DNA of 22,448 nucleotides. It comes from a virus. Under the pieces are notes generated by a model. The model searched no databases. It was not told where the DNA came from and was given only the letters and a program-made list of their open reading frames with translations. The stretch spans positions 1-22,448 of the IMG/VR virus record IMGVR_UViG_3300036841_000317; one strand, written 5' to 3'. The number at the start of each line of letters is the position of its first letter. The first letter of the stretch is position 1. Made by a program: the position numbers and the translations under genes. Below are positions 6,243 to 20,289 of the stretch, one piece after another.

Positions 6243-7085
6243 GTGGGAACAGCGAGCGCAGCGCGAAAAACACCGGCGAAACCGGCGAAGAACGGGAAAC
6301 GAACGGCACCGAAGAGCGTTCGAACGCTGAAAAAACGACCCAAGGAACAGCCCGCGGAGCCGGCGCGGTTCGAATCGCAGCATTTTGGGCCGCCGCCGGC
6401 GGGCGCAACGCATGTGCAAATGCGTCGAATCACGGCGAACGGCGACGCAGAGCGGCTCTTTTTGCTGCGAGACGGGCTCGAGGTCGACCGTTTCCCGTTG
6501 AAAGTGCTCTCGGTGGCGTGGCTCCGGCAGACCTTCGGCGCCGGCGAGTATCGCGGCAACTGGTTTCGCCAGGAAAACGGCAGATGGAAGCCGCTCGGGC
6601 AGCTCCGTGGTGTGCGTCTGTCGCCGCTAGCGGGCAACGATGTGCGCGGCGGTGCTCGAACCAAGCCGGTCCGCACGGTGGGCTTTCCCTTCGAGGTGCC
6701 GCCGCTCGCCGCGGCCGCGGCGCCGGCGGCGGCCGTCGACGAGCGCGAAGAGCGTGACCTCGTCTCGGCGCGTGTGCGCGTCGAGCGCGAGCTTTCGCAA
6801 ATGCGGCTCTCGACCATGGAGGAGCTCGCGACGTTGCGGCTCAACGCCGTACGGGAGGAGCACCGCACCGAAATGAGGGCGCTCGAGCGCAGGCTCGACG
6901 AGCTCGCGCGGCGCCGCGACCCGGAGGACGACGATGACGACGAGCCGGAGGAGCCACGCGAGGCGGGGCCGTGGGATTTCCTTCGGCCGTTCTTTCAGGA
7001 AATCACCCCGGTGCTACGCGAGGTCGTGCCCCATCTCCTCGCGAAGTTGGCTGCGCCGGGGCAGCTACCCGAGGCGAAAGGTTGA
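6243..7085 (+). CDS. Basic/coiled-coil protein, 280 aa, probably virion-related
   Basis: GTG 6243 follows a long G-run. The first 35 residues are Lys/Arg/Pro/Ala-rich and probably bind nucleic acid. Residues about 58-125 form a compact mixed domain with YRGNWFRQENGRWKPLGQ. Ala/Pro repeats lead to a long charged helix at about 165-225, very likely coiled coil, then an Asp/Glu tract (229-240) and a C-terminal helix (FLRPFFQEITPVLREVVPHLL). It is first in the late operon. A scaffolding, packaging-associated or genome-binding structural protein is plausible. There is no Walker A motif, so it is not the missing ATPase. Confidence 0.82.
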   Translation: MGTASAARKTPAKPAKNGKRTAPKSVRTLKKRPKEQPAEPARFESQHFGPPPAGATHVQMRRITANGDAERLFLLRDGLEVDRFPLKVLSVAWLRQTFGAGEYRGNWFRQENGRWKPLGQLRGVRLSPLAGNDVRGGARTKPVRTVGFPFEVPPLAAAAAPAAAVDEREERDLVSARVRVERELSQMRLSTMEELATLRLNAVREEHRTEMRALERRLDELARRRDPEDDDDDEPEEPREAGPWDFLRPFFQEITPVLREVVPHLLAKLAAPGQLPEAKG

Positions 7086-7089
7086 AGCG

Positions 7090-7488
7090 ATGCGACCCAA
7101 TGGACAAAGAGCCCCCGCCGGCGGCGCGGTGCAGGGCTGGTGCTCGGGCGAAACGCATTTTCGCGTCGAGCTGAAGACGCCGACCGGCGAGGAGCTCGCG
7201 CCGGCGTTCGAAGCGACGATGATCCTCCAGCTCGTTCCGCTCGGCGCGATGGTGCTGGTGATGGGGTGCGCGTGGACCGACGAGCCACGCGTGCCCGAGC
7301 CAGCTCGCGAGCTGAGCCTAACGTATGCGACTCGGCTACCGCGGCTCACCCTTGGTCTGAATCCCTTCGACGAGCTGGCGCAAAAATCAGTGGCCAATTT
7401 CTGCCAGCTGGCCACCAACCACTTCGCGCACCAGATCGCCGCGGCGACTTCGCCCCCGATTCAACCGCGATCGCTCGGAATCCCTTAG
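7090..7488 (+). CDS. Unknown protein, 132 aa, late operon
   Basis: ATG 7090 lies 5 bases after the previous stop, with AAAGG upstream. It starts with a flexible Gly/Ala/Pro stretch, followed by strands (THFRVELKTPTG, ATMILQLVPLGAMVLVMGC). The hydrophobic segment at about 43-60 could be a beta-core or a weak membrane span. A helix near the end (FDELAQKSVANFCQLATNHFAHQI) completes it. Its place before the wall-degrading enzymes suggests a virion or entry component; family not recognised. Confidence 0.78.
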   Translation: MRPNGQRAPAGGAVQGWCSGETHFRVELKTPTGEELAPAFEATMILQLVPLGAMVLVMGCAWTDEPRVPEPARELSLTYATRLPRLTLGLNPFDELAQKSVANFCQLATNHFAHQIAAATSPPIQPRSLGIP

Positions 7489-7515
7489 CCGCTGTGGCAT
7501 CCTCGCCAATGGGGG

Positions 7516-8625
7516 ATGCACACAGAGGAACAGCTACGCCGCGCGGCGCGGAACGCGGGGGTGCGCGTTCTGTCGATCCGCAACGTCAATAGCCCGGTCG
7601 GCCCCGTCGTCGTCGGCCGCTACGAGTGCAGCAACAACGAGCAGGCCTTTCGGCTTTTGATGGAGTTCGCGGAGGACGACGTCGCCGACGCCGTTGCGCG
7701 GACGGTCGGCCTCGAGGTGCGCCACCGCTTCGGGCCCGACCAGGTGCGCATGGCGAAGGCGATCCAGCAGTGGGTCAAGACGCACATCGATTACCTGCCC
7801 GAGCCGACGGAAACGTTCCAAGCCCCTTGGTACACGATCGCGACCGGGATCGGCGACTGCGACGACCACGCGAACCTGGTGCACGCGATCGCGCGAAACG
7901 CCGGCCTAAAAGCTCGTCTCGCGCCGGTGAGAAACAAGGAGCAGCAGATCCGCCACGCGTGCGCGCAGATCTCCGTCGACGGCGTGTGGTCGTGGGCCGA
8001 GACGACGCTCGATGCAGATTTCGACGAAGCGCCGCGCGCCGCGGCCGCGCGGCTCAAGTCGAACCGCGCCGATATCTCCGGCGCCGAGGGGGATGCGATG
8101 ACGGTGGTGCTGACGGGGGCGAACCTCCCCATGCGAAGGGGTGTCCGGTACCGCGCTCGAGCTCGTGTCGATACGCCAAAGGCGTTGACGCCGGCGAGCA
8201 CAATTCAGGCGTTTTTCGAGGATGCCGGCTTCGACGATGTACGTACGTATACCGACCCGAGCGCGCTGCCGGCGGATTGGCCCGCCGACCAGCGCGAAGC
8301 GCTCTCCGGTGGCGCCCTTGGCGGATGGACGGTGTTCGTAGAGGGAACCTGGGCCCAAGCGGACCAGGGTCTTCCGCGACCCGAGCCGATTTTAGCGGTG
8401 TGGGAAGCCGACCAGGTGACGCCGACGAGCTCGGGGCCTGGCGTCGTGACGTTGCCCGAAGTGGTCATCGTCGGCGACGTACCGGCCAAGCCTATCAACT
8501 GGAAGGTGGGAGCCTTCCTCGTGGCGACGGCCGCGGGCGTGATTTGGGTCGCGATGACGTTTGGCGGCCCGGAAAATCCACCGCGACGCTCGCGGCGGCC
8601 CTTTCTCCCCATGCAGCCGAAATGA
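7516..8625 (+). CDS. Membrane-anchored transglutaminase-like cysteine enzyme
   Basis: The product is 369 aa. Residues about 75-170 match the transglutaminase-like fold: nucleophile Cys115 in GIGDCDDHAN, His148 in RHACAQISVDG, and Asp166 after the WSWAETTLD strand, in the family order Cys-His-Asp. Residues about 226-285 form a second domain with FFEDAGFDDVRTYTD and a Trp-rich strand. A C-terminal membrane segment spans about 331-350, followed by a basic tail. The catalytic domain would sit on one side of a membrane, next to a lytic transglycosylase with the same anchoring. Likely roles are peptide hydrolysis in the cell wall during entry, or protein processing or cross-linking in the particle. 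The ATG at 7516 has only a G-run directly before it, so the exact start is less sure. Confidence 0.88.
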   Translation: MHTEEQLRRAARNAGVRVLSIRNVNSPVGPVVVGRYECSNNEQAFRLLMEFAEDDVADAVARTVGLEVRHRFGPDQVRMAKAIQQWVKTHIDYLPEPTETFQAPWYTIATGIGDCDDHANLVHAIARNAGLKARLAPVRNKEQQIRHACAQISVDGVWSWAETTLDADFDEAPRAAAARLKSNRADISGAEGDAMTVVLTGANLPMRRGVRYRARARVDTPKALTPASTIQAFFEDAGFDDVRTYTDPSALPADWPADQREALSGGALGGWTVFVEGTWAQADQGLPRPEPILAVWEADQVTPTSSGPGVVTLPEVVIVGDVPAKPINWKVGAFLVATAAGVIWVAMTFGGPENPPRRSRRPFLPMQPK

Positions 8626-9272
8626 CAACGCTCCCTGATTTGCCGGGCCTGCGCGACCTCTCCGGCGGAGAGCAACGGGCCCTTGTGGACATGGCCGGCC
8701 GGCTCGGCGCGAACCCCGATGACATTGCCTACGTCATCGGGTTCGAGACCGGACCGCGCACGCCGTTCTCGCCGGCGGCGCGCAACCCGGCCTCGGGCTG
8801 CACAGGACTCATCCAATTTTGCAGAGAAGCGGCCGCCGGATTGGGCACAACGCTCGACGAGCTCGCCGCGATGTCGTTCGCCGAGCAGCTCGGGTACGTG
8901 GAGCGATATTTCAAGCCATTTCAGGGGCGATTGAGCTCGCTCGAAGCGACCTATTTGGCCGTGTTTTGGCCCGCCGCGATGTCGAAAGACGATGACTTCG
9001 TCATCGCCTCGCAGCCGAGCCTTGCTTATGAGCAAAACCCGTCCTTCGATCGCCAGGGACGCGGGTACTTCACCCGCGGCGACGTCGTTGCGGAGATCCG
9101 CGCGTACGCTGCTGTGCCGCGAGGTCGTATCTCCGTGCCCGGGGCATGGTCGCTCGATTTAGGCTCGATCATTTTGCTCGGAGCTGTTGCCGGTGCCGGG
9201 GTGGCTTGGTATTCCCAAAGTGATGCGTGGGGTGCGCGTTCGCGGCGAGATGGCCGAGCTAGGCTGTGGTAA
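8622..9272 (+). CDS. Membrane-anchored lytic transglycosylase (SLT-like)
   Basis: ATG 8622 overlaps the previous stop (ATGA); the longer upstream open frame is only a shadow of the neighbouring gene. The product is 216 aa. Residues about 20-120 look like a goose-type/SLT lysozyme fold: catalytic Glu42 in VIGFETG, then GLIQF at 62-66 and a helix EQLGYVERYFKPF. A C-terminal hydrophobic span lies at about 178-197 (LDLGSIILLGAVAGAGVAW), then a basic tail. The enzyme cleaves peptidoglycan glycan strands to the 1,6-anhydro form. Internal-membrane phages such as PRD1 carry a transglycosylase (P7) associated with the virion membrane, so a role in genome entry is the best inference. Confidence 0.85.
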   Translation: MTTLPDLPGLRDLSGGEQRALVDMAGRLGANPDDIAYVIGFETGPRTPFSPAARNPASGCTGLIQFCREAAAGLGTTLDELAAMSFAEQLGYVERYFKPFQGRLSSLEATYLAVFWPAAMSKDDDFVIASQPSLAYEQNPSFDRQGRGYFTRGDVVAEIRAYAAVPRGRISVPGAWSLDLGSIILLGAVAGAGVAWYSQSDAWGARSRRDGRARLW

Positions 9273-10053
9273 CGGCCTTGGCGGGGTCGACGGCGACACG
9301 CAACTCATCGGCGACGCGTGGGACGACCTCGGCGATTTCGCGGCGGACGCCGTGGCCACCGTCGCGCCGATTGGGCTCGCCGTCGTCGGCAGCGTGATCG
9401 CGCCCGGTATCGGTACCGCGCTCGGCGGACTCGCCGGCTCGGCCATCGGCAAGGCGGTGGGGGGCAGCGCTCCGAGCGGTGTTCTCGGGGCGGCGATCAA
9501 CATCGGAAGCGGCATCGTCACCGGCGATGTGAGCAGCATCGTCAAAGGTGGCGTTTCGCTCGGCGCGCAGGGACTCTCCGCGCTCGGCGGTGGCGGTGGG
9601 CCGGTCTACAACGGCCAGCCCGCGGCGCCGGCGCCGAGGACGACGCCGTACGTCATCGACAAGCCGGGGTGGCGTCTCGACGCCGCCAATGGGCAGTGGT
9701 GCTACGACGCGGCCGACTACTGCACGCCGGCCGTCATTGGCGATCGGAACAGCGTGACCGGCGAGGTGTACACCGGTGCACCCGCGGCGCAGCCTGGGCT
9801 CATCGCAACGCGCAGCCTTTCGTCGCTGCCGCGCACCCTCACCACCGCGAGCATGCTCAGCTCGGCGAACGTTCTTCGCGCGCTGGCGTTGAAACAGCCC
9901 GCGCAGCCTCAAACTTTGGCCGCTCCGGTGCAACCTGCGCCGGCGGCGGCCGCGCCGGCTCCGGCGAAATGGAGCACCGGTAAGAAGGTCGCGGGCGTGG
10001 GAGCCGCCCTCGGCCTTGGTTACGCTGCCTGGCGGATCGCTGCCTTGTTGTGA
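9250..10053 (+). CDS. Gly/Ala-rich membrane protein of the virion region
   Basis: The start is uncertain: TTG 9187, ATG 9223 or ATG 9250. I give 9250, which overlaps the transglycosylase gene by 23 bases; the product is then 267 aa. A Gly/Ala/Val-rich hydrophobic region (about 35-75: APIGLAVVGSVIAPGIGTA and following) resembles membrane-penetrating or glycine-zipper segments. The central domain (about 130-180) has Trp/Tyr/Cys residues (QWCYDAADYC). A Pro/Ala linker leads to a C-terminal hydrophobic helix (VAGVGAALGLGYAAWRIAALL). It is probably embedded in the virus membrane; a pore-forming or DNA-delivery role is possible but unproven. Confidence 0.78.
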   Translation: MAELGCGNGLGGVDGDTQLIGDAWDDLGDFAADAVATVAPIGLAVVGSVIAPGIGTALGGLAGSAIGKAVGGSAPSGVLGAAINIGSGIVTGDVSSIVKGGVSLGAQGLSALGGGGGPVYNGQPAAPAPRTTPYVIDKPGWRLDAANGQWCYDAADYCTPAVIGDRNSVTGEVYTGAPAAQPGLIATRSLSSLPRTLTTASMLSSANVLRALALKQPAQPQTLAAPVQPAPAAAAPAPAKWSTGKKVAGVGAALGLGYAAWRIAALL

Positions 10054-10796
10054 TCGTACGCTCACGCGATCGGAATCCGATTGGCTTCGCGCTGCCGAAG
10101 CCGACGGTAACGACCACGCCGCCAAAGACGACGGTCACGCCGCCTTCGGTGACCACGCGTCTCACGCTCGGCTCGACGCCGGCGACGCCGGCGACGCCGG
10201 CGGTATCGACCATTTTGCGCCTCGGCTCGCCGACGACGACGCCGGCGGCACCCGCGACAAGTACGCCATCGTTTAGCTCGATCTTGCGCGCGATCGCGCC
10301 GACGACGACGACGCCGGCGCCGGCGACGGCAGGATCGCTCATCAAGGCGCTTGGTCCGACGGTGAAGGCGTTGACCACGCCAACGACGCCGGCGACGACC
10401 GGACCGATCGCGGCGTTCAATCGCTCGACGTCCGCGCTTTCACTCGCGCCGACGACGGCGCCCGGGACACCGGTCGCAACGTCGATCCCGACGCCGCCAA
10501 CGACGCAGGTGCAGGTGCAGGCGACGCAGCCACCCGGCACGTACGTGGGTCCCGACGGACGCACGTACATGGATCCGAGCTACTACCCTCCGCAGACCTC
10601 GAGCGGTGGCGGTGGTGGCGGCGGCATCGGTCCGGCCATGACGTCGGGCTACGCAGCTGCACCGCTCGACGCGGCGCCCGCGGCCGCGGCGCCGGCGAGC
10701 TCGGGTTTTGGCGATTTCTTCACGCCGAAGAACATCGCGATCGGAGCGGCGATCTTTGTCGGGGGCATCGTCCTGAAAAAGGTGCTGCATGCCTAA
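10050..10796 (+). CDS. Pro/Thr-rich membrane-anchored protein, 248 aa
   Basis: GTG 10050 overlaps the previous stop (GTGA). Residues about 16-165 are a mucin-like Pro/Thr/Ala/Ser-rich region with TPA repeats (9-base units at 10175-10201). Next come a short motif GTYVGPDGRTYMDPSYYPP, a seven-residue Gly run and a C-terminal membrane helix (about 226-243). The layout is a long extended stalk fixed in a membrane, suiting a spike stalk or a protein spanning the space between membrane and capsid. The stop overlaps the start of the LysM gene. Confidence 0.78.
   Translation: MIVRSRDRNPIGFALPKPTVTTTPPKTTVTPPSVTTRLTLGSTPATPATPAVSTILRLGSPTTTPAAPATSTPSFSSILRAIAPTTTTPAPATAGSLIKALGPTVKALTTPTTPATTGPIAAFNRSTSALSLAPTTAPGTPVATSIPTPPTTQVQVQATQPPGTYVGPDGRTYMDPSYYPPQTSSGGGGGGGIGPAMTSGYAAAPLDAAPAAAAPASSGFGDFFTPKNIAIGAAIFVGGIVLKKVLHA
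10175..10201. repeat. Three 9-bp tandem repeats
   Basis: GACGCCGGC is present three times head to tail and codes for Thr-Pro-Ala repeats in the stalk-like protein. Such in-frame repeats can expand or shrink by slippage, changing stalk length. Confidence 0.8.
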
Positions 10797-11490
10797 AACG
10801 ATCACGTCGATCGGCGACCTCGGTTGCTGCATTCTCGGCGTCAACGACGCCGGCGGCGGCCTCGGTTCGCTCGATGAAATGATGAGCATCTCGGGCGCCG
10901 ACGACGACGCCATCAACATCGACGACCCGGGCCAGCCCGAGCCCGCGGTGTCCGACTTCGATCCGATCTTCATTCCGGCAACCGGGCCGGTCGCGATGGC
11001 GATCCCGGAGCCAGGGCCCGGCGGCAGCCTCACGCCGAAGGCGGCGGGCTGGGCGCGCGGTGATGGATCGTACGTCGTGCAGTCGGGCGACACGCTTTCC
11101 GGGCTCGCCCGCATCTACCTCGGCGACGCTGCGCGCTATCCCGACATCTGGAATCGGCAGAGCGCCGACTACAGGGCCAAGCGCGCCTCACCGAACAACC
11201 TCGTGGTGGGGGACATCCTTGCCATGCCGCCGGAAGCCGTACTCAAGGCCCAGCAGCTCGGCGTATTTACGCCGAAGGTGTCGAGCTCGAGCTCGAGCTC
11301 GTCGCCGGCGCCGGCGGCGCCCGTCGCGACGGCGCCCGTCCCGAAGCCCGCCGCAGCCACCAAGCCAAGCCACAAGGTGGCTCTAGGACTTGGCTCCGCG
11401 CTCGCCGCGGGCCTCGGCCTCCTGGTCTTTCGAAAGCCCCACAGCGCGAAGCCTGCGCGCCGGAAAGCAGCACGGAGGCGCCGGCGATGA
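10789..11490 (+). CDS. LysM-domain membrane protein
   Basis: ATG 10789 overlaps the upstream stop. The product is 233 aa. After an acidic N-terminal region, a LysM domain lies at about 94-148: SYVVQSGDTLSGLARIYLGD, the PDIWN and NNLVVGDILAMP motifs. LysM binds the N-acetylglucosamine part of peptidoglycan. Then come an eight-Ser run, a Pro/Ala linker, a membrane helix at about 196-214 and a very basic tail (RRKAARRRRR). In phages LysM occurs in virion base or lysis proteins. Here it would hold the particle or its membrane at the cell wall beside the transglutaminase-like and transglycosylase enzymes. The Ser run comes from a repeated GAGCTC word. Confidence 0.88.
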   Translation: MPKTITSIGDLGCCILGVNDAGGGLGSLDEMMSISGADDDAINIDDPGQPEPAVSDFDPIFIPATGPVAMAIPEPGPGGSLTPKAAGWARGDGSYVVQSGDTLSGLARIYLGDAARYPDIWNRQSADYRAKRASPNNLVVGDILAMPPEAVLKAQQLGVFTPKVSSSSSSSSPAPAAPVATAPVPKPAAATKPSHKVALGLGSALAAGLGLLVFRKPHSAKPARRKAARRRRR

Positions 11491-11774
11491 AGCGTGACGC
11501 GGCGACGTGGCACCGCGTCTTCGAGCGGTCGCTCGTCGGCGTTACGCCTTACGTGCAAAGCAAGGCGGACGCGGACGAGTACGTACAGCGCGCCAAGATG
11601 CTCGCCGATCGAGCGTCGGTCGTCGCCGGCGAGGTGCCGCGCACAGGCTCGCTCCCGGAGAGCAGCGAAGAGAACGACCCGTTTCCGCTGACGCGTCAGT
11701 TCCTTCGAAGCCGCACGCCTGAACCCGCGCCGATCCCTGGCCCCTTCGATTGGGAGGGCGATCGCTTTGGCTGA
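11487..11774 (+). CDS. Small protein of unknown function, 95 aa
   Basis: ATG 11487 overlaps the LysM gene stop (ATGA). The N-terminal half is helical and charged (WHRVFERSLVGV, DADEYVQRAKMLADRASVV), and the C-terminal half is Pro/Ser/Glu-rich and probably disordered. No membrane span or Cys pair. It overlaps the next TTG start, so it is translated with its neighbours. A minor virion or assembly factor is a guess from position only. Confidence 0.75.
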   Translation: MKRDAATWHRVFERSLVGVTPYVQSKADADEYVQRAKMLADRASVVAGEVPRTGSLPESSEENDPFPLTRQFLRSRTPEPAPIPGPFDWEGDRFG

Positions 11775-12573
11775 TCTGCTGCAAGCGCAGTTTGACCCCG
11801 TCGCCGGCGCCGCGGCGCTCGCCACTTTCAATGGCGCAAGCGGTGTACGTGCGTACCTGTCGGGGCAAAATCTTCGAGCAGGGCTCCTGTCGGCGCTCTA
11901 CTCGGCCGAGATGCTCGCCGCGACGGCGGGCGTGGTGCCGTGGTTCGATCTCGGCGATGGCCAGAAGGGCGTGGCGGTACTCGGGGGGGCCCGCAGTAAG
12001 CTTGCAAGCGCGCCCGAGAGCGTTCGGACGATCTACCTCGCAGCGCATGGAGCCGCGCGCCAGGCCCAGGCGCACGCGCGCGAGGCGTCGTCCGGCGTTC
12101 CTCTTTCGCAGCGCACCGACGGGTCGCTGGCAACGGTGCAGCAAGCGGTGGGAGCGCTTCCGCTCGTCGCCGTCGTCGTGGTGACGGTGATCGGAGTCGC
12201 CGCGGTGTGTGCAAGCGCGTGGTTTGCAAAAGGCGTCGTCGAAAAGATCGTGCAGACGCACGCCGACGATCTTCGCGCGACCTACGCCGTCGACCAGGCG
12301 GCGAAGCTCGCCATGGCCCAGATCGCCGCGGGCCAGCCCGTCGACCCGGGCGTGTACGCCGTTCTCCAAGCGGCGGCGAAGAAAGAGGCGGAAGCGCCGG
12401 CGCTGATCCCGACCTGGGCGATCGCCGGCGCCGCGGGCGTCGTCATCGCGATCGCGTGGCGTCCCGTCGCCGACGCGCTCTCGTGGGGCTCGATGCTCAT
12501 TCCGTCGCGGCCGCGCTCGCCGCTTCGCGGCGGCCGCACGTCGGGCATTTTCACGTCATCGGGGGGCGGGTGA
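11767..12573 (+). CDS. Two-span membrane protein, 268 aa
   Basis: TTG 11767 is supported by GGGAGGG about 8 bases upstream and by overlap with the preceding gene. A strong membrane segment lies at about 131-156 (LPLVAVVVVTVIGVAAV) and a second at about 216-232 (TWAIAGAAGVVIAIAW). The first 130 residues are Ala-rich helix, and a helical domain with EKIVQTHADDLRATY separates the spans. The C-terminus is Arg/Ser/Gly-rich. It fits a virus-membrane structural protein. Its stop overlaps the next GTG (GTGA). Confidence 0.8.
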   Translation: MADLLQAQFDPVAGAAALATFNGASGVRAYLSGQNLRAGLLSALYSAEMLAATAGVVPWFDLGDGQKGVAVLGGARSKLASAPESVRTIYLAAHGAARQAQAHAREASSGVPLSQRTDGSLATVQQAVGALPLVAVVVVTVIGVAAVCASAWFAKGVVEKIVQTHADDLRATYAVDQAAKLAMAQIAAGQPVDPGVYAVLQAAAKKEAEAPALIPTWAIAGAAGVVIAIAWRPVADALSWGSMLIPSRPRSPLRGGRTSGIFTSSGGG

Positions 12574-12848
12574 GTAGTGGGACACGCAAGTACATCATTA
12601 CCCACTGGGGGCACCGCGGCCCGGTGCCATGGTACGACCTCGAGTGTCCGGACCCGCGCGCCGGCGAGCTCGTCGCGCTTGGTCATCTGCCCGAGATCGC
12701 GTACCTCACGACCAAGGGCGGCGACCGTGGCCCGACGCTGTACGAGCACAAGTTCCATCGGCCGTGGCCGATACTTGCGTTCAATGGCACGGGGTTGGTT
12801 ATCTGCGGAGGGGGCTACCGCGTAGGGGTTAGAGGCATCATCGGCTGA
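12570..12848 (+). CDS. Small protein of unknown function, 92 aa
   Basis: GTG 12570 overlaps the upstream stop; the longer open frame from 12207 is a shadow. The protein is rich in His, Trp, Gly and Pro (YIITHWGHRGPVPWYDLECP, HKFHRPWPILAF) and looks beta-rich, with a hydrophobic end (GLVICGGGYRVGVRGIIG). His/Cys residues could bind metal, but no known motif is clear. It lies between two membrane-protein genes of the presumed virion operon. Confidence 0.68.
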   Translation: MSSGTRKYIITHWGHRGPVPWYDLECPDPRAGELVALGHLPEIAYLTTKGGDRGPTLYEHKFHRPWPILAFNGTGLVICGGGYRVGVRGIIG

Positions 12849-12871
12849 ACGCCGAAGCCCGGGGGGGCGCA

Positions 12872-13864
12872 ATGGCACGTGCACGTCGAATCACCGTCCG
12901 GGTTTCGAACCCGACGCACAGGCAACGAGCGAAGAAACGCGCGACCAAGCGTCGCCGGCGCCGCAATCCGGGCGAGCAACTGTCGTTCGCGCAGATCGCA
13001 CAGAAGCACGCTCGAGCGAAGCCGCTGCGTCGCAAGCACCCCAAAAAGGGGCGCTTCATCTCGCAGATCATGAAGAAGAAGGGCAAGCGACGCGCGCCGG
13101 CGCGGAAGCGCGCCCCGAGCTCGGCGGCGCACACGACGCACCGCGCGGCGCCGCGCTTCGAGCAGCTCACGCTCGACGAAGCGCTCGCGTCAGTGCCGCG
13201 CGTCAATCGACGCATGATCGGCGCTCGTCCGATCGTCGTCGTCGCCGGCGGCGCAACGCGCTCGAGCTCGAGCTCGAGCGGGACGAAGAAGAAGCGAAAA
13301 AAGGCGGTTCGAAAGGCCGCGCGAAAGGGGGGACACATGGCCAAACGAAGAAGTGGTGGGAAGAAACGTCGAAAGAGCTCGCGCGGCCGCAGGGGGCACC
13401 GTCGCATTCGGTGCACGGCGTACCAGCGCAAGGGCAAGTGGATTGCTCGTCGCGTCAATCCGAGCCTTCCGGCTCCGATCGCGGCGGGCCTCGGTGCCGT
13501 GGTCGGCGCCGCGGCGGGCGTCGGCATCTCGTACGGTGCCGACAAGCTCGGGATCGGAAGCCCGAGCGTGCGAAACTGGGGACTCTTCGGGATCGGTCTC
13601 TTGACCGCTGCCGTGGGTCACAAGTTCGCGCCGGGTGCGTCGCTCGCCGTCGGTGCTGGCGTTGCCGGCATCGGCCTTTTGCGCAGCGCACAGACGATGC
13701 TCTACGCCGTGCCGCAAGCAACGGCGCCGGTGTCGGGCCTCGGCATGGGCGAGGGCGGCGAGGGATCGATCTCGGGCCCGTTCGGACAACTCGGCTCCGG
13801 CGGTTCGGTCTTCGACCGGATCGGCGCGGTCGTCGAGGGAGACGTAGGCGCGCTCTACGAGTGA
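12872..13864 (+). CDS. Basic DNA-binding-like domain fused to a multi-span membrane domain
   Basis: The product is 330 aa from ATG 12872, behind a G-run. Residues 1-85 and 137-195 are extremely Lys/Arg-rich, like nucleic-acid-condensing proteins, separated by a short neutral domain and a six-Ser run. Residues about 200-272 hold three Gly/Ala-rich hydrophobic segments, followed by a Gly/Ser-rich acidic tail. The design suggests a protein in the virus membrane that contacts the packed genome, or draws it to the membrane during assembly. An in-frame internal ATG at 13337 has a strong ribosome site, so a shorter second product is likely. Internal-membrane phages do have DNA-contacting membrane proteins; homology here is not claimed. 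Confidence 0.82.
   Translation: MARARRITVRVSNPTHRQRAKKRATKRRRRRNPGEQLSFAQIAQKHARAKPLRRKHPKKGRFISQIMKKKGKRRAPARKRAPSSAAHTTHRAAPRFEQLTLDEALASVPRVNRRMIGARPIVVVAGGATRSSSSSSGTKKKRKKAVRKAARKGGHMAKRRSGGKKRRKSSRGRRGHRRIRCTAYQRKGKWIARRVNPSLPAPIAAGLGAVVGAAAGVGISYGADKLGIGSPSVRNWGLFGIGLLTAAVGHKFAPGASLAVGAGVAGIGLLRSAQTMLYAVPQATAPVSGLGMGEGGEGSISGPFGQLGSGGSVFDRIGAVVEGDVGALYE
13326..13339 (+). promoter_or_regulatory. Internal ribosome binding site and ATG within the basic membrane-protein gene
   Basis: AGGGGGGA lies four to eleven bases before the in-frame ATG at 13337 (Met156). Starting here gives a 175-aa product with the second basic region plus the whole membrane domain. This is stronger than the site at the main start, so the gene may make two nested proteins, or may be an old fusion of two genes. 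Confidence 0.5.
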
Positions 13865-13980
13865 TGCCGCTTCGGGGATTGCCGCGAGCGAAGGGAGCCG
13901 TGGGGCAATCGGTGCGGTGACGGCTGGCGTCGTCGTCGCACCCACCACCCAACACACAAAAAAAAACCCGGGGGGGTCTC
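13865..13980 (+). promoter_or_regulatory. Leader region before the major capsid candidate
   Basis: This is the longest gap inside the late operon. It has a 7-bp inverted repeat (13877-13883/13904-13910), a run of nine A at about 13959-13967, and a G-run serving as ribosome site before ATG 13981. An extra promoter or mRNA processing signal to raise capsid expression is plausible; I cannot point to a sure -35/-10 pair. An 18-codon frame (13864-13920) is too short to call. Confidence 0.4.
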
Positions 13981-14790
13981 ATGAACGATCAGCAATTTGC
14001 CGCGCTAATGCGCGCGCTCTCGCGCCGCGGAGGCGGTGGCGAGCACGTCGAACAGTCGTATCCGTATTACTCGCACGTGCGGTTTCAGTTCACGGCATCG
14101 GCCGCCGGCGGCCCGCCGGCAACCAACACGTACACGTATACCGCAGGCACGCAGGTGCAGGCCTTCAACTACTCGCAGAACCAGAGCCTTGTCGGCGCTG
14201 GCTTCCTCGCGGGCAACGCGACGGCCTTGGACACCAACCTCAACAAGCAAAGCGAGACCATCGGCGGCGAGACCGTGAAGATCTACGGCATCTCGTTCCT
14301 TCTCGACTCCGACGCGGACGCCGAGCTGACGCGCCTCGCCTTTGCGAACATCTCCGTGCGCATCGGCCTCAACGGCGATCAGAACGTCTACAACTTCGGG
14401 CCTCTCTCCATGATGCCCGGCGGTGGTGGACTCAACGGCATCGGTCGATCGGACACCGTCGAACCGGGGTTGCTCGATCGCTTCGCCATGGTGGGCGTTC
14501 TCTCCAACGGTCTGCCGGGCACGGCGAACTACTTCCGCTTGCCCACGCCGATCCTCTGGAAGCCGCCGGGCGGCCCGGATGCCTCGCTCACGATCACGTG
14601 TCGCTGCGAGCGTACGGTCTCGTTCACGTCGCTGAACCGCGTGGCTCAAGCGCCGGGCGCCAACACGTCGGGCGCGCAGGCCTTCACCGGCCCCGTCGCC
14701 TCGGGCACCACCAGCGTGCTCGGCACGTACACGGGCGGTTGGTTCCGTCTGCACTCCGTCACGCAGAGCAAGCGCAGCTCGAACTCGTAA
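13981..14790 (+). CDS. Major capsid protein candidate (beta-rich, 269 aa)
   Basis: ATG 13981 is preceded by a strong G-rich site and its own leader, and followed by a terminator-like hairpin, as expected for a highly expressed gene. After a short helix (DQQFAALMRALSRR) the rest is beta-rich and rich in Thr, Asn, Gly and aromatics, with no membrane span. Notable segments are YSHVRFQFTAS, ETVKIYGISFLLD, ANISVRIGLNGD, YFRLPTPILWKPPGG and ASLTITCRCERTVSF. Size and composition suit a jelly-roll capsid protein of a tailless virus, but I cannot tell single from double jelly roll by eye. The main alternative is another abundant shell protein, with the 151-aa or 378-aa product as the main unit. Confidence 0.62.
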   Translation: MNDQQFAALMRALSRRGGGGEHVEQSYPYYSHVRFQFTASAAGGPPATNTYTYTAGTQVQAFNYSQNQSLVGAGFLAGNATALDTNLNKQSETIGGETVKIYGISFLLDSDADAELTRLAFANISVRIGLNGDQNVYNFGPLSMMPGGGGLNGIGRSDTVEPGLLDRFAMVGVLSNGLPGTANYFRLPTPILWKPPGGPDASLTITCRCERTVSFTSLNRVAQAPGANTSGAQAFTGPVASGTTSVLGTYTGGWFRLHSVTQSKRSSNS

Positions 14791-14806
14791 CGAGCCTCGC
14801 ACCGGT

Positions 14807-14836
14807 GGGGGGCGCGTCGACGAGTGCGCGCCCCCC
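14807..14836 (+). terminator. Terminator-like hairpin after the capsid candidate
   Basis: GGGGGGCGCG at 14807-14816 pairs perfectly with 14827-14836 (10 bp, 10-base loop), followed by GTCGTTTCCCC. The T-tract is weak, so it may be a partial terminator or an mRNA-stabilising 3' end that sets a high capsid level while allowing read-through to the next gene. Confidence 0.55.
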
Positions 14837-14876
14837 GTCGTTTCCCCGATTGAGCTCGTTGGAGGGGCTATTCCCC

Positions 14877-15332
14877 ATGAATCCGACTCCCAATCAGATC
14901 GCGCAAAATCGTGGCGGCCGCACCGTCGAAGCGCTGCGCGTGACGCGCGTGGTGCACGTGCAAAATCTCGTCTCGATTCCGGCCAACACCACCAGCCCGA
15001 CCACGGGCTTTCCCGTGTATTGGCCATCCACCGGGACGGTGCTGTGGATCGTCGCCAGCGTCGCCGCGGCGTCGTCGGCCGATCAGTACTACGGCGGCAT
15101 CTCGTCGCTCGGCCTGCGGATCAACATCCTCGGCATGAGCGAATTTATCACTTCGGGGCAGGCGGCCGACTACGTGCAGTTTTCTTCGCTGATGCCATCG
15201 AGCGGCTTCCGCTTCCCCATCAACGTCAACGTCGTGCAAAACGACACGTGGACCATCTACGTCCGCAATCTCAACGGAGCGAACGCTTACACGCCAGACG
15301 TCGCCTTCGGGCTCTCCGAAGTCAACAGCTGA
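14877..15332 (+). CDS. Beta-rich structural protein, 151 aa (second capsid or vertex candidate)
   Basis: ATG 14877 has GGAGGGG at 14861-14867 with good spacing; the in-frame stretch upstream belongs to the antisense and shadow of the capsid gene. The protein is soluble, with alternating hydrophobic strands (VTRVVHVQNLVSIPA, GTVLWIVASVAAASS, LRINILGMSEFI, WTIYVRNLNG) typical of a single jelly-roll shell protein. Two neighbouring beta-rich proteins of different size recall viruses such as P23-77 with a small and a large capsid protein. It could also be a penton or decoration protein. Confidence 0.68.
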   Translation: MNPTPNQIAQNRGGRTVEALRVTRVVHVQNLVSIPANTTSPTTGFPVYWPSTGTVLWIVASVAAASSADQYYGGISSLGLRINILGMSEFITSGQAADYVQFSSLMPSSGFRFPINVNVVQNDTWTIYVRNLNGANAYTPDVAFGLSEVNS

Positions 15333-15343
15333 AGGGGGCGCCC

Positions 15344-16480
15344 ATGTCGCAACCGTACGATCCGGTCTTTCCGACGGGTCGCCCGCCGGGCGGCCCGCGG
15401 CCCGCGGACACCGCGGCACAGGAGCAGAAAAAGCGGCTTTTCTGGTCGCAGTCGCGAAGCTTCACCATCGCGCCAGGCGGCCCCGAAACTGCGATCATGA
15501 CGTTGCCCGCGTCGACGGCGATCGACGTGATGATTCAGTACCGGCAACCCGGCCAGAACCCCACGATCGTCAGCCCCGACGGCCGCGAGGTGTATAACCT
15601 CTATGCCCAGGAGCAGCTTTTTTCGCGCATTCTGGCGTCGTTCACGCCAGGCGGGCACGTGCCGGGCTTCGGAGGGGACAGCCTTCCGCCAGTCGGCCGC
15701 GTCTTTGCGGTGCGCGATTTCCCGGCCGACGGGTGGGACCTCAAGATCGACACCACCAACATGGTGGCCGACCCGGACGCGCCGCCGACGCTCATCATCG
15801 ACGTCACCTGTCAGGGGTGGGCACGCGAGCCGACGGGCATCGGCCCGCTCGAGCTCGAGACGCTCGCCGCGGCCGTCGAAAAAACCGATCGGCTGCTCAC
15901 GTTCGTGCCGACGGGAGGCCTGACCGACGTCGACGTTGGTACGCCGACCTTCGGGATCGTGCAGGTCTACAACCTCGTCGACCCGTGGACGCCTTCCAAT
16001 TCGGATCTTGCCGGCGCCGCCAACGTCATCATGTGCGGCGTCGACCCGGATACGTTCGACATCACCCCCATTTTCACGACGCCGAGCGGGGGGATCGCGA
16101 GCGACCCGACGCCCGAGACCACCAATTTCACGACGGCGCTCGCCGGCAGTCTGGTGGTCCGAGATCGCGGATGCATCATCATGGCCGCTTCGGGGCGCAT
16201 CGACTCGACGGCGACGACCGGCACCTACTACGTGCAGCTATGGAATCTCGACGCGGTGCCCGCCAACGGGACGGCGGTCACCACGGGCAACGGCGCGATC
16301 GCGGCGCCCATCAAGATCCAACACTCGAGCGGCGCAGACGACTATTTCGACTTCGAGCTGCCCGACGGCTACGACGCGGACACCGGTTTCACGATCACGC
16401 TCTCCAGCACGGAGTTCACGAAGAGCGCGAGCCCGGGAAACTTCATGTCCGCAACGGGCGCCTACAAAGACTTTGCTTGA
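15344..16480 (+). CDS. Large beta-rich structural protein, 378 aa
   Basis: ATG 15344 follows AAGGGGGCG; upstream in-frame codons are shadow. The Pro/Gly-rich N-terminus (1-25) leads to a first beta domain (about 33-175: SFTIAPGGPETAIMTLP, DLKIDTTNMVADPDAPPTL) and a second (about 195-378: TFGIVQVYNLVDPWTP, TYYVQLWNLDAVP, FTITLSSTEFTKS). A helical connector (LELETLAAAVEKTDRLL) joins them. The two-domain beta design suits a capsid, vertex or receptor-binding protein. It has no membrane span. Its position directly before the four paralogs suggests they assemble together. Confidence 0.72.
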   Translation: MSQPYDPVFPTGRPPGGPRPADTAAQEQKKRLFWSQSRSFTIAPGGPETAIMTLPASTAIDVMIQYRQPGQNPTIVSPDGREVYNLYAQEQLFSRILASFTPGGHVPGFGGDSLPPVGRVFAVRDFPADGWDLKIDTTNMVADPDAPPTLIIDVTCQGWAREPTGIGPLELETLAAAVEKTDRLLTFVPTGGLTDVDVGTPTFGIVQVYNLVDPWTPSNSDLAGAANVIMCGVDPDTFDITPIFTTPSGGIASDPTPETTNFTTALAGSLVVRDRGCIIMAASGRIDSTATTGTYYVQLWNLDAVPANGTAVTTGNGAIAAPIKIQHSSGADDYFDFELPDGYDADTGFTITLSSTEFTKSASPGNFMSATGAYKDFA

Positions 16481-16490
16481 GGGCCGCGCC

Positions 16491-16925
16491 GTGTTGAGCG
16501 TGCGCAAGAGCTACCGAACGACGCGCAGCGGCCAAAGCGGCGTGACGTTCACGGCTCCGATCGTGGTCGGGTCGGTGGGAGGAAGCGCGCTCCCCACCGA
16601 CCCGAATCCAAACACGACGCCGCCGGCGGGTGGTCGCATTCTTCGGTTCAATCGACAGCCGTGGACGCTGACAACGAGTGGGCTCGGCGTCGTCTACATC
16701 ACCATCGTTCCGGTCGCGCTCGCATCGATCACCATTCAGCCGTGGTTCTTCGACGCGACGCAAAATGTGTGGATTCAATTCGCGACGGCGACGACGTCGA
16801 CGCCGACCGCGGCGGGGGTCAACAACCTTCAATCGATCAACATCTTCGATTGGGGCGGGGCGCTCTTCTTTCCGCAGATCACGGCATGCACCGCCGTTGC
16901 CTGCATTCTCTATGGGTGGTTTTGA
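16491..16925 (+). CDS. Tandem paralog 1: small beta-rich structural protein
   Basis: GTG 16491 has GAGGG upstream. At 144 aa this is the first of four adjacent homologous genes. Family blocks seen here: VGSVGGSALPTDPNPNTTPP with AGGRIL, then IQPWFFDATQNVWIQ, then GGALFFPQITA. It is the most divergent at its ends, finishing in CILYGWF rather than the QA-x-x-YD ending of the others. Predicted all-beta and soluble. Probably a subunit of a spike, vertex or shell. Confidence 0.75.
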   Translation: MLSVRKSYRTTRSGQSGVTFTAPIVVGSVGGSALPTDPNPNTTPPAGGRILRFNRQPWTLTTSGLGVVYITIVPVALASITIQPWFFDATQNVWIQFATATTSTPTAAGVNNLQSINIFDWGGALFFPQITACTAVACILYGWF

Positions 16926-16926
16926 A

Positions 16927-17361
16927 ATGCTCGCCGTCACGCAAAGGACGACCTCGCTCTCGTCGCCGAAGCAGGCGACGACGTTCGGCTTTGCGATTTG
17001 GGTGGGGACAATCGGGGGCGCCGCTTTGTCTCCGGACCCCGACCCGAACACGACGCCGCCGGCTGGCGGTCGCATTCTCATCAACGGAGCGAAGCACGGT
17101 GGGTGCCTGACCGTCGGTCAAGGCTCGCTCCGCATCTACGGCGCGCCCGTCGCCGGCGGCACGTTCTCTTCGATCATTTGGACCTACGAGGACACGATCG
17201 CCCGGTGGGTTCCGTTTGTGCAAACGGTGACGGTCGTCGCAAACGGCGTCGCGCAAAACTTCAATTTCGGCACGGCTCTCGCTACGCGGATGAATCAGCA
17301 GACGTTCATGCAGCTAACTGCCGTGACCAACGTGCAGGCGATCGCGTACGATTTCTGTTGA
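16927..17361 (+). CDS. Tandem paralog 2: small beta-rich structural protein
   Basis: I chose ATG 16927, which gives an MLAV start like its siblings; ATG 16912 is possible. The product is 144 aa. The N-terminal block (WVGTIGGAALSPDPDPNTTP) is well kept, but the middle WFFD block is replaced by IIWTYEDTIARWVPF, and the end is LTAVTNVQAIAYDFC. The conserved N-terminus with a changed middle suggests a shared scaffold or contact surface and a divergent exposed part. Confidence 0.75.
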   Translation: MLAVTQRTTSLSSPKQATTFGFAIWVGTIGGAALSPDPDPNTTPPAGGRILINGAKHGGCLTVGQGSLRIYGAPVAGGTFSSIIWTYEDTIARWVPFVQTVTVVANGVAQNFNFGTALATRMNQQTFMQLTAVTNVQAIAYDFC

Positions 17362-17371
17362 AGGGGGGAGC

Positions 17372-17800
17372 ATGCTTCGCGTCCAGCAATCGGTCATTCA
17401 GTCGCCGGCGCACGACAACGACACTTTCGCGCTCGCCGTGTGGGTTGGGACGATCGGAGGCGCGGTGCTCCCGACCGACCCCAATCCGAATACGACGCCG
17501 CCGGCGGGCGGTCGCATCCTCACCATGCAGCCGCGCACGGGGACGCTCATCATCAGCGGGAGCGCACAGCTTCGCGTCGTCGCCGGCGTCGTCGCGGCGA
17601 GCTCGTTCACGTTTCAGCCGTGGTTCTTCGACCCAACCCCGAATCTGTGGGTTCAGTACGGCGCGCCAACGACGCTCACGCCGACCGGCGCCGCGTCGAA
17701 CGCGATCGGCTTCAACACCGGCAACATGGCGGGGGCGCTCTTCTTCATCCAGCTCACCGCGGTCGTTCTCGTTCAGGCTGTTGGATACGACTACCAATGA
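17372..17800 (+). CDS. Tandem paralog 3: small beta-rich structural protein
   Basis: ATG 17372 follows AAGGGGGGA. The product is 142 aa with all three family blocks: WVGTIGGAVLPTDPNPNTTP, FQPWFFDPTPNLWVQY and GALFFIQLTAVVLVQAVGYD. It is the cleanest representative of the family. Its stop overlaps the start of paralog 4 (ATGA), so the two are translationally coupled. Confidence 0.78.
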   Translation: MLRVQQSVIQSPAHDNDTFALAVWVGTIGGAVLPTDPNPNTTPPAGGRILTMQPRTGTLIISGSAQLRVVAGVVAASSFTFQPWFFDPTPNLWVQYGAPTTLTPTGAASNAIGFNTGNMAGALFFIQLTAVVLVQAVGYDYQ

Positions 17801-18255
17801 GCCTTCGTGTCTGGTCGTCCGTCGTCAACCAGGTACGCGCTCCCGCGTCGCCGGCGTTCGGCCTCGCCATTTGGGTCGGGTCGATCGGCGGCGCAGCATT
17901 GCCCACCGACCCCGATCCCAACGTGACGCCGCCCTCTGCGGGCCGCATCGTGCGCGTGCAGGCGAAGCGGGGCGGCGCGTTTGTTCTCGGCCGCACGAAT
18001 CAAACGGCGCTGGTCAACGTGACGATCGTTTTTGGTGTCGTCGCGGCGAGCTCGATCACCGTTCAGCTTTGGTTCTTCGACGCGACCCAGGCGAAGTGGG
18101 TGCCCATGGGCATCCCTGCGACGCGCACGCCGACTGGCGCAGCCACCAACCTGTTCGGGGCAGTGACTGAAACGTGGTTCCCGGTGGGCGCGCAATTTTT
18201 CCCGCAAATCACGGCTAACGTGAACACGCAGGCTATGGCCTACGATGCGACGTGA
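17797..18255 (+). CDS. Tandem paralog 4: small beta-rich structural protein
   Basis: ATG 17797 overlaps the previous stop; upstream in-frame codons are shadow. The product is 152 aa: WVGSIGGAALPTDPDPNVTP, VQLWFFDATQAKWVPMG and GAQFFPQITANVNTQAMAYD. A short insertion (about residues 60-75, FVLGRTNQTALVNVT) makes it longest. Four different copies in a row imply different positions in one particle, or a pool for receptor or antigen variation. Confidence 0.78.
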   Translation: MSLRVWSSVVNQVRAPASPAFGLAIWVGSIGGAALPTDPDPNVTPPSAGRIVRVQAKRGGAFVLGRTNQTALVNVTIVFGVVAASSITVQLWFFDATQAKWVPMGIPATRTPTGAATNLFGAVTETWFPVGAQFFPQITANVNTQAMAYDAT

Positions 18256-18269
18256 GAGGAGAGACCGCG

Positions 18270-18608: not shown

Positions 18609-18611
18609 GCC

Positions 18612-19034
18612 GTGCCGAGGGGGGGAAGGGCGCGGAGGACGTCGTCGATCGGGATCGCCCCGTCGCGCACGTTGCCGAGCAGCCGCAGCCGCGGCGGGGT
18701 GTATGGCTTTTTTGCCGCGGTGGTCTCGGCGGTGGTGGTGTTCTGCGGGGCGGTCTCGTTCGGCATCGCGGTGGGCGCCATCCTACCAGGTTGCCCGATT
18801 CCGCCCGCCCAAAGCCCGCAGGAGACCATTTGTCGGGCGAAGGGGCGCGCGATCATCTTCGAGGCGCCGACGTGCCACGAGGCGGTTACCGCGCTGGAGT
18901 GGCTGGTTTTGACCGACCCCGATTGCAAGGCGGCCGGTCTCGAGGGCGGTGTGGTCACGTTTGACGACTGCCCCGACGGGGGGGGTGGAGATGGACACGC
19001 GTTCGATTTTGAAGGGGCTGGACCTGATCGTTGA
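18612..19034 (+). CDS. Membrane-anchored or lipoprotein-like Cys-rich protein
   Basis: GTG 18612 has GAGGA upstream, but the first 29 residues are Arg/Ser/Pro-rich. GTG 18699 would give a tighter 111-aa protein with MYGFFAAVVSAVVVFCG at its N-terminus. A hydrophobic span is followed by a lipobox-like LPGC, then a Cys-containing domain (ETICRAKGRAII, PTCHEAVTALEWL, TDPDC). A small lipoprotein next to the lysozyme could be an outer-membrane spanin or entry factor. The antisense strand also has an open frame with equal third-base GC (see findings), so the assignment is not fully safe. Confidence 0.5.
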   Translation: MPRGGRARRTSSIGIAPSRTLPSSRSRGGVYGFFAAVVSAVVVFCGAVSFGIAVGAILPGCPIPPAQSPQETICRAKGRAIIFEAPTCHEAVTALEWLVLTDPDCKAAGLEGGVVTFDDCPDGGGGDGHAFDFEGAGPDR

Positions 19035-19212
19035 CGTCCTGGCGATCGTCAACCCGGAGGTCGGCGAGCTCGCGAGAGAGGGCGTGCTTTTTGCGAAGGA
19101 GCTCGTGGAGCAGGGCGCCGAAGATCCCGTAACTCAAATGCGAAACCTGCGCGCCCGTGTGCGCGACGACTGGAGACAAGCGCTCGCGGAGCGATTCAAC
19201 CCGGGGGGGTGA
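18991..19212 (+). CDS. Small helical protein next to the lysozyme, 73 aa
   Basis: ATG 18991 lies right after a G-rich stretch and overlaps the end of the preceding gene by 44 bases. Helices are RSILKGLDLIVDVLAIV, a VGELAREGVLFAKELVEQ stretch and a basic C-terminal helix. The first helix is amphipathic to hydrophobic (DLIVDVLAIV), too short for a sure membrane span. It overlaps the lysozyme start (GTGA). It could be a lysis regulator or antiholin-like protein by position only. Confidence 0.7.
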   Translation: MDTRSILKGLDLIVDVLAIVNPEVGELAREGVLFAKELVEQGAEDPVTQMRNLRARVRDDWRQALAERFNPGG

Positions 19213-19724
19213 CCGTGGAAGAGACAGAATGGGAAGCAAAGACGCGCGCGCTCATCACCGTCAACGAGCAGCGCCGGCGACGGCGCTATTTCGATTCGCT
19301 CGGCAACCCGTCGGTGGGGATTGGGTTCAACCTCGAGCGTTCCGACGCGATCGCCATGCTGACCAAGGTCGGCGCCGATTGGAAGAGCGTCCTGGACGGG
19401 ACAGGCGAGCTCACCGATCCGCAAGTCGATCGGCTCTTCGATTTGTGTTTCGAGGAAACGATCCCCTTTGCGAAGAAGGTTTTTCCCAACTGGGAAATGC
19501 TGCTTCTCGAGGTGTGGTCGGTGCTCGTCGATATGTGCTTTCAGATGCGCGCTCGGGTGTACGGCTTCAAGCACATGCGCGAGGCGATCGCGCGGCTCGA
19601 CTACCAGGCCGCAATGACCGAAATGCGCAACTCACTCTACGCGAAGCAGTGCCCGGGGCGCGTCGCGCGAAACTGCGCCTTCATCGAAGCAGCCTTGCCG
19701 GTGTCGCGCGAAGGGAGTGTGTGA
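19209..19724 (+). CDS. T4-type lysozyme (endolysin, GH24-like muramidase)
   Basis: The product is 171 aa from GTG 19209 (GTGA overlap). The N-terminal motif fits T4 lysozyme: Glu20, Asp29 and Ser35 in ITVNEQRRRRRYFDSLG and NPSVGIGFNLERSDA have the same spacing (9 and 6) as Glu11, Asp20 and Thr26 of T4, with the Thr replaced by Ser. The helical second lobe follows (LFDLCFEETIPFAKKVFP, LLLEVWSVLVDMCFQM). It should hydrolyse the MurNAc-GlcNAc bond for host lysis. There is no signal peptide, so it needs a holin; the membrane protein just downstream is the obvious partner. Confidence 0.9.
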   Translation: MTVEETEWEAKTRALITVNEQRRRRRYFDSLGNPSVGIGFNLERSDAIAMLTKVGADWKSVLDGTGELTDPQVDRLFDLCFEETIPFAKKVFPNWEMLLLEVWSVLVDMCFQMRARVYGFKHMREAIARLDYQAAMTEMRNSLYAKQCPGRVARNCAFIEAALPVSREGSV

Positions 19725-19725
19725 A

Positions 19726-20115
19726 ATGGATCTCGTCTTTAAGCCGATCGATCTGACGCAGGTCATGCTCGCAGCCGTGACCGTGCTCGGCGGGGGCTTC
19801 TTCGCTTGGCTCAACGGCAAAAAGGTGGCGAGCGTCGACGCGGCGGAGAAGCGCATCAGCGAACACGCCGAGCTCGCGCAGACGTCGGCCGCCGTCGCCG
19901 CGAAGCATGCCGACGTCGCCGGGCAAGTCGTGCAGAGCCTTCGCGCGCCGGCGATGCCGCCGGGGATGCAAGCCGTTCTCGAGAGCTACCAGGGCAAGAA
20001 CGTGCAGAGCTTGCCGCCCGAGGTACTCGAGAGCGAGCCGCCGGCGAGCTCGGGCCCGACGAGCATGCGCATTCCCGCCAATCGACCCACGCCGAAGGAC
20101 CGCGGCACGCGCTGA
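19726..20115 (+). CDS. Holin- or spanin-like single-span protein
   Basis: ATG 19726 has AAGGGAG about 8 bases upstream and starts 2 bases after the lysozyme stop. The product is 129 aa. One hydrophobic span lies at about 12-30 (QVMLAAVTVLGGGFFAWLN), followed by a long Ala-rich helix (SVDAAEKRISEHAELAQTSA) and a Pro/Ser-rich tail. A single N-terminal span plus a periplasmic helix fits an inner-membrane spanin; a one-span holin also fits. It is the last gene of the late operon before an inverted-repeat-rich gap. Confidence 0.68.
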   Translation: MDLVFKPIDLTQVMLAAVTVLGGGFFAWLNGKKVASVDAAEKRISEHAELAQTSAAVAAKHADVAGQVVQSLRAPAMPPGMQAVLESYQGKNVQSLPPEVLESEPPASSGPTSMRIPANRPTPKDRGTR

Positions 20116-20240: not shown

Positions 20241-20289
20241 GGGCGGCGGCCGGCTCGAAGGCTGGCGCTCCCCGAACCGGCCGCCGCCC
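20241..20289 (+). terminator. 13-bp GC-rich hairpin, probable end of the late operon
   Basis: GGGCGGCGGCCGG pairs perfectly with 20277-20289 around a 23-base loop. It is very stable but lacks a T-tract afterwards, so Rho-independent termination is not certain. A stability or processing element is the alternative. Confidence 0.5.

Follow-up and report, generated by a model that had tools for sequence, protein, structure and literature searches.

A circular 22.3-kb phage genome with membrane-anchored entry-type proteins and no recognizable packaging ATPase: a possible case of DNA condensation by a basic membrane protein

The window analysed here is the whole 22,448-nt stretch of DNA in IMG/VR virus record IMGVR_UViG_3300036841_000317, and the analysis concerns how a genome with a dense block of membrane-protein genes and no recognizable packaging motor may be enclosed in a virus particle. 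The ends of the window are identical, as bases 1–127 match bases 22322–22448 exactly, which closes a circle of 22,321 bp and bears out the claim of an earlier, sequence-only reading that the genome is complete and circular. The gene set consists of 39 plausible genes, all located on the plus strand with the exception of 5747–6136 (g13), the only clear minus-strand gene. This gene, for which no family was found, separates an early block, containing replication and recombination genes together with small proteins that lack a family, from a late block that begins at 6243. Most adjoining genes of the late block overlap or stand within ~30 bases of each other. Neither tRNA nor Rfam families were found in the window. 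The window appears to be the complete circular genome of a phage that is either lytic or plasmid-like. It is highly improbable that the circle is instead an assembly artefact that has lost a segment containing the motor and capsid genes. The exact 127-nt overlap could equal an assembly k-mer and only one copy of the genome is known, whereas the composition is smooth and the genes are tightly packed, with overlaps over nearly the whole late block.

The first part of the late block is rich in membrane proteins. A Kyte-Doolittle hydropathy scan, applied in the same way to control genomes, calls a transmembrane-like segment in 15 of the 39 window proteins (44% of residues), with the calls in g04, g12, g28, g30, and g31 probably being false positives. 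Between 6243 and 13864 (g14–g24), 8 of 11 proteins contain such a segment, and the dense block itself spans 7090–13864. Consequently, while the membrane-rich layout described earlier stands, the estimate that about half of the circle encodes membrane proteins does not, and ~30%, the share of this block, is a fair figure. Among tailless controls, the share of proteins with a transmembrane segment is 50% in the Thermus phage P23-77, 47% in PRD1, 38% in the Flavobacterium phage FLiP (Finnlakeviridae, MF361639), 29% in the Pseudoalteromonas phage PM2, and 19% in SSIP-1; in the tailed phages P2, T7, and phi29 it is 17%, 12%, and 7%, respectively. Four of the 39 window proteins (those starting at 7516, 8622, 10050, and 10789) have their sole transmembrane segment at the C-terminus (threshold 1.4), often followed by a K/R-rich tail. 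The corresponding counts are 4/15 in FLiP, 3/15 in PM2, 11/55 in SSIP-1, 2/30 in P23-77, and 0/21 in PRD1, and among the tailed phages 0/21 in phi29, 0/39 in T7, and 2/39 in P2.

Three of these C-terminally anchored proteins resemble proteins that act on the cell wall or belong to a virion. The product of 7516–8625 (g16) contains a transglutaminase-like domain (Pfam Transglut_core, 1.8e-13) followed by a C-terminal transmembrane segment and a K/R-rich tail, and it retains a GDCDDHA motif around the expected cysteine, which may be used in catalysis. This protein is similar to SSIP-1 gp34 (phmmer 1.6e-7; z 11.2 with transmembrane regions removed), which is annotated as a structural protein and likewise ends in a C-terminal transmembrane segment. 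Through this similarity, gp34 (L009:21296–22210), labelled only as a structural protein, can itself be described as transglutaminase-like.

The product of the adjacent gene 8622–9272 (g17) contains a virion-type lytic-transglycosylase/lysozyme domain (PHROG E 2.7e-32) and a C-terminal transmembrane segment, in line with the prediction of a wall-degrading membrane protein. It is 35.5% identical over 138 aa to FLiP CDS14, the virion lytic enzyme of that phage (E 1.2e-19 in a small set), and the alignment stands far above shuffled sequence (z 32.7; about 30). Both proteins have the same domain order, consisting of the lysozyme domain, a single C-terminal transmembrane segment, and a short tail. 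In tailed phages this domain type is found toward the C-terminus of long baseplate proteins (profile positions 383–525 of 536 and 629–775 of 834). A tail reading of the "baseplate hub" matches to g17 was rejected, as the matches span the lysozyme domain only; the "tail" labels therefore reflect a shared wall-cutting domain and not a tail.

The third protein, encoded by 10789–11490 (g20), contains a LysM domain, a C-terminal transmembrane segment, and a RRKAARRRRR tail. The LysM match lies just under the Pfam cut-off (E 5e-4; 20.4 bits versus 20.9) and is accompanied by a PHROG endolysin match (9e-7), in agreement with the wall-binding membrane protein foreseen from the sequence. Anchored in the virion membrane, the products of 8622, 7516, and 10789 would act on the cell wall during entry. 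The remaining genes of this region encode a 280-aa protein with a basic N-terminus, no transmembrane segment, and no relatives found (g14, 6243–7085, the first late gene), a 132-aa protein with one transmembrane-like segment (g15, 7090–7488), a Gly-rich hydrophobic membrane protein (g18, 9193–10053), a Pro/Thr-rich protein with a transmembrane segment at its extreme C-terminus (g19, 10050–10796), and a membrane protein with two transmembrane segments (g22, 11767–12573).

The packaging ATPase of the known double-stranded DNA (dsDNA) members PRD1, PM2, and P23-77, named in the sequence-only reading, is caught in all three by the Walker A pattern [GA]xxxxGK[ST], which also detects the packaging ATPases of SSIP-1, phi29, and T7 and is silent in FLiP. 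In the six frames of the window this pattern has a single match, on the minus strand at 15387, which falls in a 70-aa open stretch inside another gene and is noise. The earlier statement that coding frames lack a Walker A motif is thus upheld. Profiles for FtsK, DUF87/HerA, Zot, terminase (phrog_2), and portal (PF04860), which cover the FtsK-HerA and terminase search proposed alongside that statement, give no match in the window up to E 10. Run on control genomes, the FtsK profile picks up the motors of PM2, P23-77, and SSIP-1 and is silent in FLiP and PRD1. PHROG scans of most window proteins for tail, portal, and terminase genes gave only lysozyme-domain matches to baseplate proteins, consistent with the claim that no tail gene is present. 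Since the control scans work, the absence of a classical packaging motor holds, and its support appears to be the best that the sequence of a single genome can give.

Tailless groups that lack the ATPase have been published, namely the FLiP group (single-stranded DNA, ssDNA, up to 17 kb) and the Odin group (dsDNA, 7–11 kb), and ATPase-free encapsidation has been inferred for both (PMC5894146, PMC7654751). It is possible that the DNA of a tailless inner-membrane virion is pumped in this case by a host motor (e.g., FtsK) or by a diverged or non-P-loop virus protein. A motor gene is present in most circular dsDNA relatives (PM2, P23-77, SSIP-1), and 22 kb exceeds the published ATPase-free sizes (7–11 kb; up to 17 kb, PMC5894146). 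In contrast, no Walker A motif lies in a coding frame even though the pattern works in six controls, and the FtsK, DUF87, Zot, and terminase profiles are silent, making a pumped genome an unlikely explanation.

A candidate for an alternative route is encoded by 12872–13864 (g24), directly upstream of the proposed capsid gene at 13981. The N-terminal 195 residues of this protein of ~330 aa contain 69 K/R (35%) and 4 D/E, giving a net charge of +65, and are followed by two transmembrane-like segments. The net charge of the entire protein (+63) is the largest in the window. Similarly, FLiP CDS7, a structural protein with a transmembrane segment, has the largest net charge in FLiP (+27, 84 aa) and is encoded directly before the FLiP capsid gene, and P23-77 has a strongly basic virion protein, VP11. 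From these sequence features we infer DNA binding, condensation, and wrapping by a DNA-condensing membrane anchor. The 12872 product would condense the circular genome onto the cytoplasmic membrane, with no preformed shell being filled by an ATPase, and the shell proteins would then bind membrane proteins, wrapping membrane and DNA together. Full neutralisation of the 44,642 phosphates would take approximately 690 copies, and partial neutralisation fewer, a figure that is arithmetic and not evidence. For PM2, and likewise for the ATPase-free FLiP and Odin groups, the question has been raised of how tailless viruses bring closed circular DNA into a membrane (PMC6260650, PMC5894146). With a highly charged membrane-anchored protein in the place taken by a small one in FLiP, a motor-free 22-kb genome offers a concrete candidate for alternative packaging.

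The membrane block is followed by beta-rich soluble proteins (13981–18255) and then by the lysozyme gene, the order given in the sequence-only reading. These soluble proteins would form the shell and spikes. The 269-aa product of 13981–14790 (g25), equal in length to the PM2 capsid protein, is proposed as a capsid protein solely from its position and length, and the 151-aa soluble product of 14877–15332 (g26) is, by its position only, a second capsid or penton candidate. An RLPxP motif resemblance between the window capsid candidates and SSIP-1 gp45/gp46 is at chance by score and serves as a lead only. No similarity to FLiP CDS8, the capsid protein, was detected in the window by phmmer or blastp.

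The 378-aa product of 15344–16480 (g27) is proposed to be a receptor-binding spike. The C-terminal module of this protein (~256–378) is 37.5% identical over residues 265–361 to an unannotated open reading frame (ORF) of podophage ctQWt234 (tblastn, E 2e-9; E 5.4e-15 within the record), and the occurrence of this module in a podophage ORF suggests a receptor-binding role. The module, at 16109–16480, matches L003:10906–11310 (MW202801, a tailed podophage) and may represent an adhesin-like module that has passed between tailed and tailless phages. Downstream, four tandem paralogues (g28–g31, 16491–18255) of 142–152 aa are 35–50% identical and are predicted to be single beta-sandwich heads (model of moderate confidence, pLDDT 70.9, pTM 0.65). 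Comparison of this model with the PDB gives C1q/TNF/BclA-like heads, carbohydrate-binding heads, and one nanovirus capsid, tied at Z 7–8 (≤8.1), a mixed set with scores no higher than would be expected if no true relative existed. Comparison with a viral structure library gives a best E of 7.5e-4 with poor TM-scores, and a PDB sequence search with 13981, 15344, and the paralogues yielded nothing convincing. The simplest reading of the paralogues is that they are displayed heads or decoration; together with the 15344 product, they would be receptor-binding or decoration proteins. The tandem array resembles an in-genome amplification of a putative surface head, which could be a setting for host-range diversification. 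A reading of 14877 as a fifth paralogue could not be demonstrated.

The late block ends with a putative lysis cassette, whose products (19209 and 19726) would lyse the cell. The lysozyme of the lysozyme/holin cassette described earlier is confirmed as a T4-type endolysin (g35, 19209–19724; PHROG 1.3e-8), while the holin remains a guess from topology, as the product of 19726–20115 (g36) has an N-terminal transmembrane segment and a PHROG holin match of only E 0.15. The product of 18612–19034 (g33) has a transmembrane segment followed by a Cys and, by topology only, is possibly lipoprotein- or spanin-like.

A dense block of membrane proteins with no recognizable capsid and no ATPase would also be expected of a capsid-less membrane-vesicle virus similar to pleolipoviruses or plasmaviruses, in which a budded vesicle with spikes needs no motor. 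The gene content makes this quite improbable. The proteins of 13981–18255 have no signal-peptide-like hydrophobic N-terminal segment, such that their outward display would need another export route, and the endolysin gene favours lysis over budding. Furthermore, pleolipoviruses are archaeal viruses. Plasmaviruses infect wall-less cells (PMC6356626).

The early block contains an O-like replication initiator and a recombinase. The initiator gene (g01) runs from 22110 across the circle junction to 1201 and encodes 470 aa in all; the first part (22110–22448) contains a winged helix-turn-helix region (PHROG 270, E 1e-6), while the second part (128–1201) has no family match. An O-like initiator points to dsDNA, and the genome is probably dsDNA. 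No Pfam or PHROG match to a rolling-circle Rep was found among the scanned proteins, and there was no similarity to FLiP CDS15. The product of 2644–3372 (g07) is a serine resolvase/invertase-type recombinase (Pfam Resolvase, 2.4e-37) that is 33% identical to SSIP-1 ORF3. The plasmid-type replication and resolvase genes, together with the lack of an own motor and of a proven capsid, would suit a satellite or phage-plasmid that borrows the capsid and packaging motor of a helper. Against such a dependence, which is improbable to a slightly greater degree than a budded vesicle, the genome has entry enzymes, spike-like proteins, and a lysis cassette of its own, and its similarities to tailed phages are limited to lysozyme domains and one adhesin-like module. 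In addition, PHROG scans of most window proteins revealed nothing resembling proteins that hijack a helper or redirect its terminase.

The reading preferred here, to which a probability of about 0.5 is assigned, is that the window is the complete circular genome of a tailless phage with a shell around an inner membrane, in which the 12872 product drives DNA condensation and wrapping. The homologies to the FLiP lytic enzyme and to SSIP-1 gp34 and the C-terminal-anchor architecture support the tailless, membrane-containing reading given earlier, an interpretation that overall is partly supported. Several points weigh against this reading. Strand type, particle, and membrane are predictions from the gene content. 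No capsid protein has been demonstrated, and the choice of capsid gene is a guess: searches of phages, IMG/VR, PDB sequences, Pfam, PHROGs, and NCBIfam gave no relative of 13981, its single-sequence AlphaFold model is unusable (pLDDT 34.5), and alignment with gp45/gp46, the putative capsid proteins of SSIP-1, is at chance level. The FtsK profile misses the real motor of PRD1, so a profile miss alone is no proof and the Walker A test is the stronger of the two. The absence of C-terminal-only anchors from PRD1, a true tailless membrane phage, indicates that this trait is not universal. Finally, lysozyme domains move between phages, and one shared enzyme is therefore weak evidence of descent.

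Comparison with described phages suggests that the window fits none of the known groups, as it lacks the ssDNA-type Rep of FLiP and the ATPase of SSIP-1 and its capsid cannot be assigned. Similar to FLiP, the window is circular, has no packaging ATPase, and encodes a homologous lytic enzyme, several C-terminally anchored proteins, and a strongly basic transmembrane protein directly before the capsid position. In contrast, FLiP has a 9.2-kb ssDNA genome with an M13-type Rep (PMC5894146, PMC7654751), whereas the window has 22.3 kb and an O-like initiator; the capsid genes are not alignable, and no homologue of the window transglutaminase or LysM protein was found in FLiP. SSIP-1 is a tailless phage with circular dsDNA, an inner membrane, and many C-terminally anchored proteins, and shares the gp34 homology and the recombinase. 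It differs in genome size (43.8 kb), in encoding an ATPase (gp40) with a Walker A motif and a trace of the FtsK profile, and in capsid proteins that cannot be aligned with those of the window. The Odin group (Yutin et al. 2018, PMC5894146) is likewise dsDNA and tailless without a packaging ATPase, and has a small pre-capsid gene in the place of the ATPase; by description, it differs in genome size (7–11 kb), in detectable double jelly-roll capsid proteins, and in the small size of the pre-capsid protein compared with the 330-aa basic transmembrane protein. P23-77 and PM2 are also tailless, with circular dsDNA, an inner membrane, and many membrane proteins, but they encode a packaging ATPase and no sequence similarity to the window was found.

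The earlier reading suggested a new virus group, but ATPase-free tailless viruses have already been published (PMC5894146). As the FLiP and Odin groups lack the ATPase, its absence alone is no new principle, and the window appears to be a larger variant that mixes FLiP-type and SSIP-1-type entry proteins. Only tentatively can it be proposed to represent a new lineage, at family level, of tailless dsDNA membrane phages, in which 22 kb is enclosed through condensation and wrapping by the 12872 product and which links the FLiP-type and SSIP-1-type gene sets. The homologous entry-type proteins connect FLiP and SSIP-1, isolated phages that are described as almost without relatives.

IMG/VR and genome contigs were scanned with short exact or degenerate words, which reach near relatives only. 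The IMG/VR queries were the proteins 13981, 15344, and 7516, the catalytic fragment of the last, a fragment of 6243, the C-terminal module of 15344, and alignments of the paralogues and of the transglutaminase; none revealed a relative except SSIP-1. The single IMG/VR match of the 6243 fragment (L005) was discarded, as it spans 11 residues, lies in a different frame of an unrelated gene, and is due to chance. Scans of genome contigs gave nothing useful apart from one archaeal transglutaminase, and tblastn of the other structural proteins against phages and plasmids brought up lysozymes, a single podophage module, and a weakly matching plasmid transglutaminase, and nothing else.

Several minor features are located outside the late block. 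The early part encodes a ribbon-helix-helix protein, and no defence genes were found among the early proteins. A DnaA-like reading of 21508–22113, prompted by the sequence, was dropped as no profile backs it. A two-part hairpin at 21160–21212, between g38 and g39 and before the 21508 gene, has a perfect 12-bp outer stem and an 8-bp inner stem (−30.2 kcal/mol, z −5.1; other strand z −5.9), and is a candidate bidirectional terminator, resolution site, or origin element. Just past the late operon, a GC-rich hairpin at 20241–20289 with 17-bp arms that are 94% complementary is a possible terminator without a U-tract. A small unlisted ORF of ~57 codons at the end of the early block (5566–5739) encodes a hydrophobic N-terminus with a Cys and a Pro/Ser-rich tail (RPCFCESNTPAPSSP...), suggestive of a secreted or lipoprotein-like peptide. 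Two small proteins are rich in cysteine: an acidic 77-aa protein with 11 cysteines (2127–2360), which possibly binds metal, and a 129-aa protein encoded downstream of the lysis cassette (20424–20813), which has 9 cysteines in a zinc-ribbon-like spacing.

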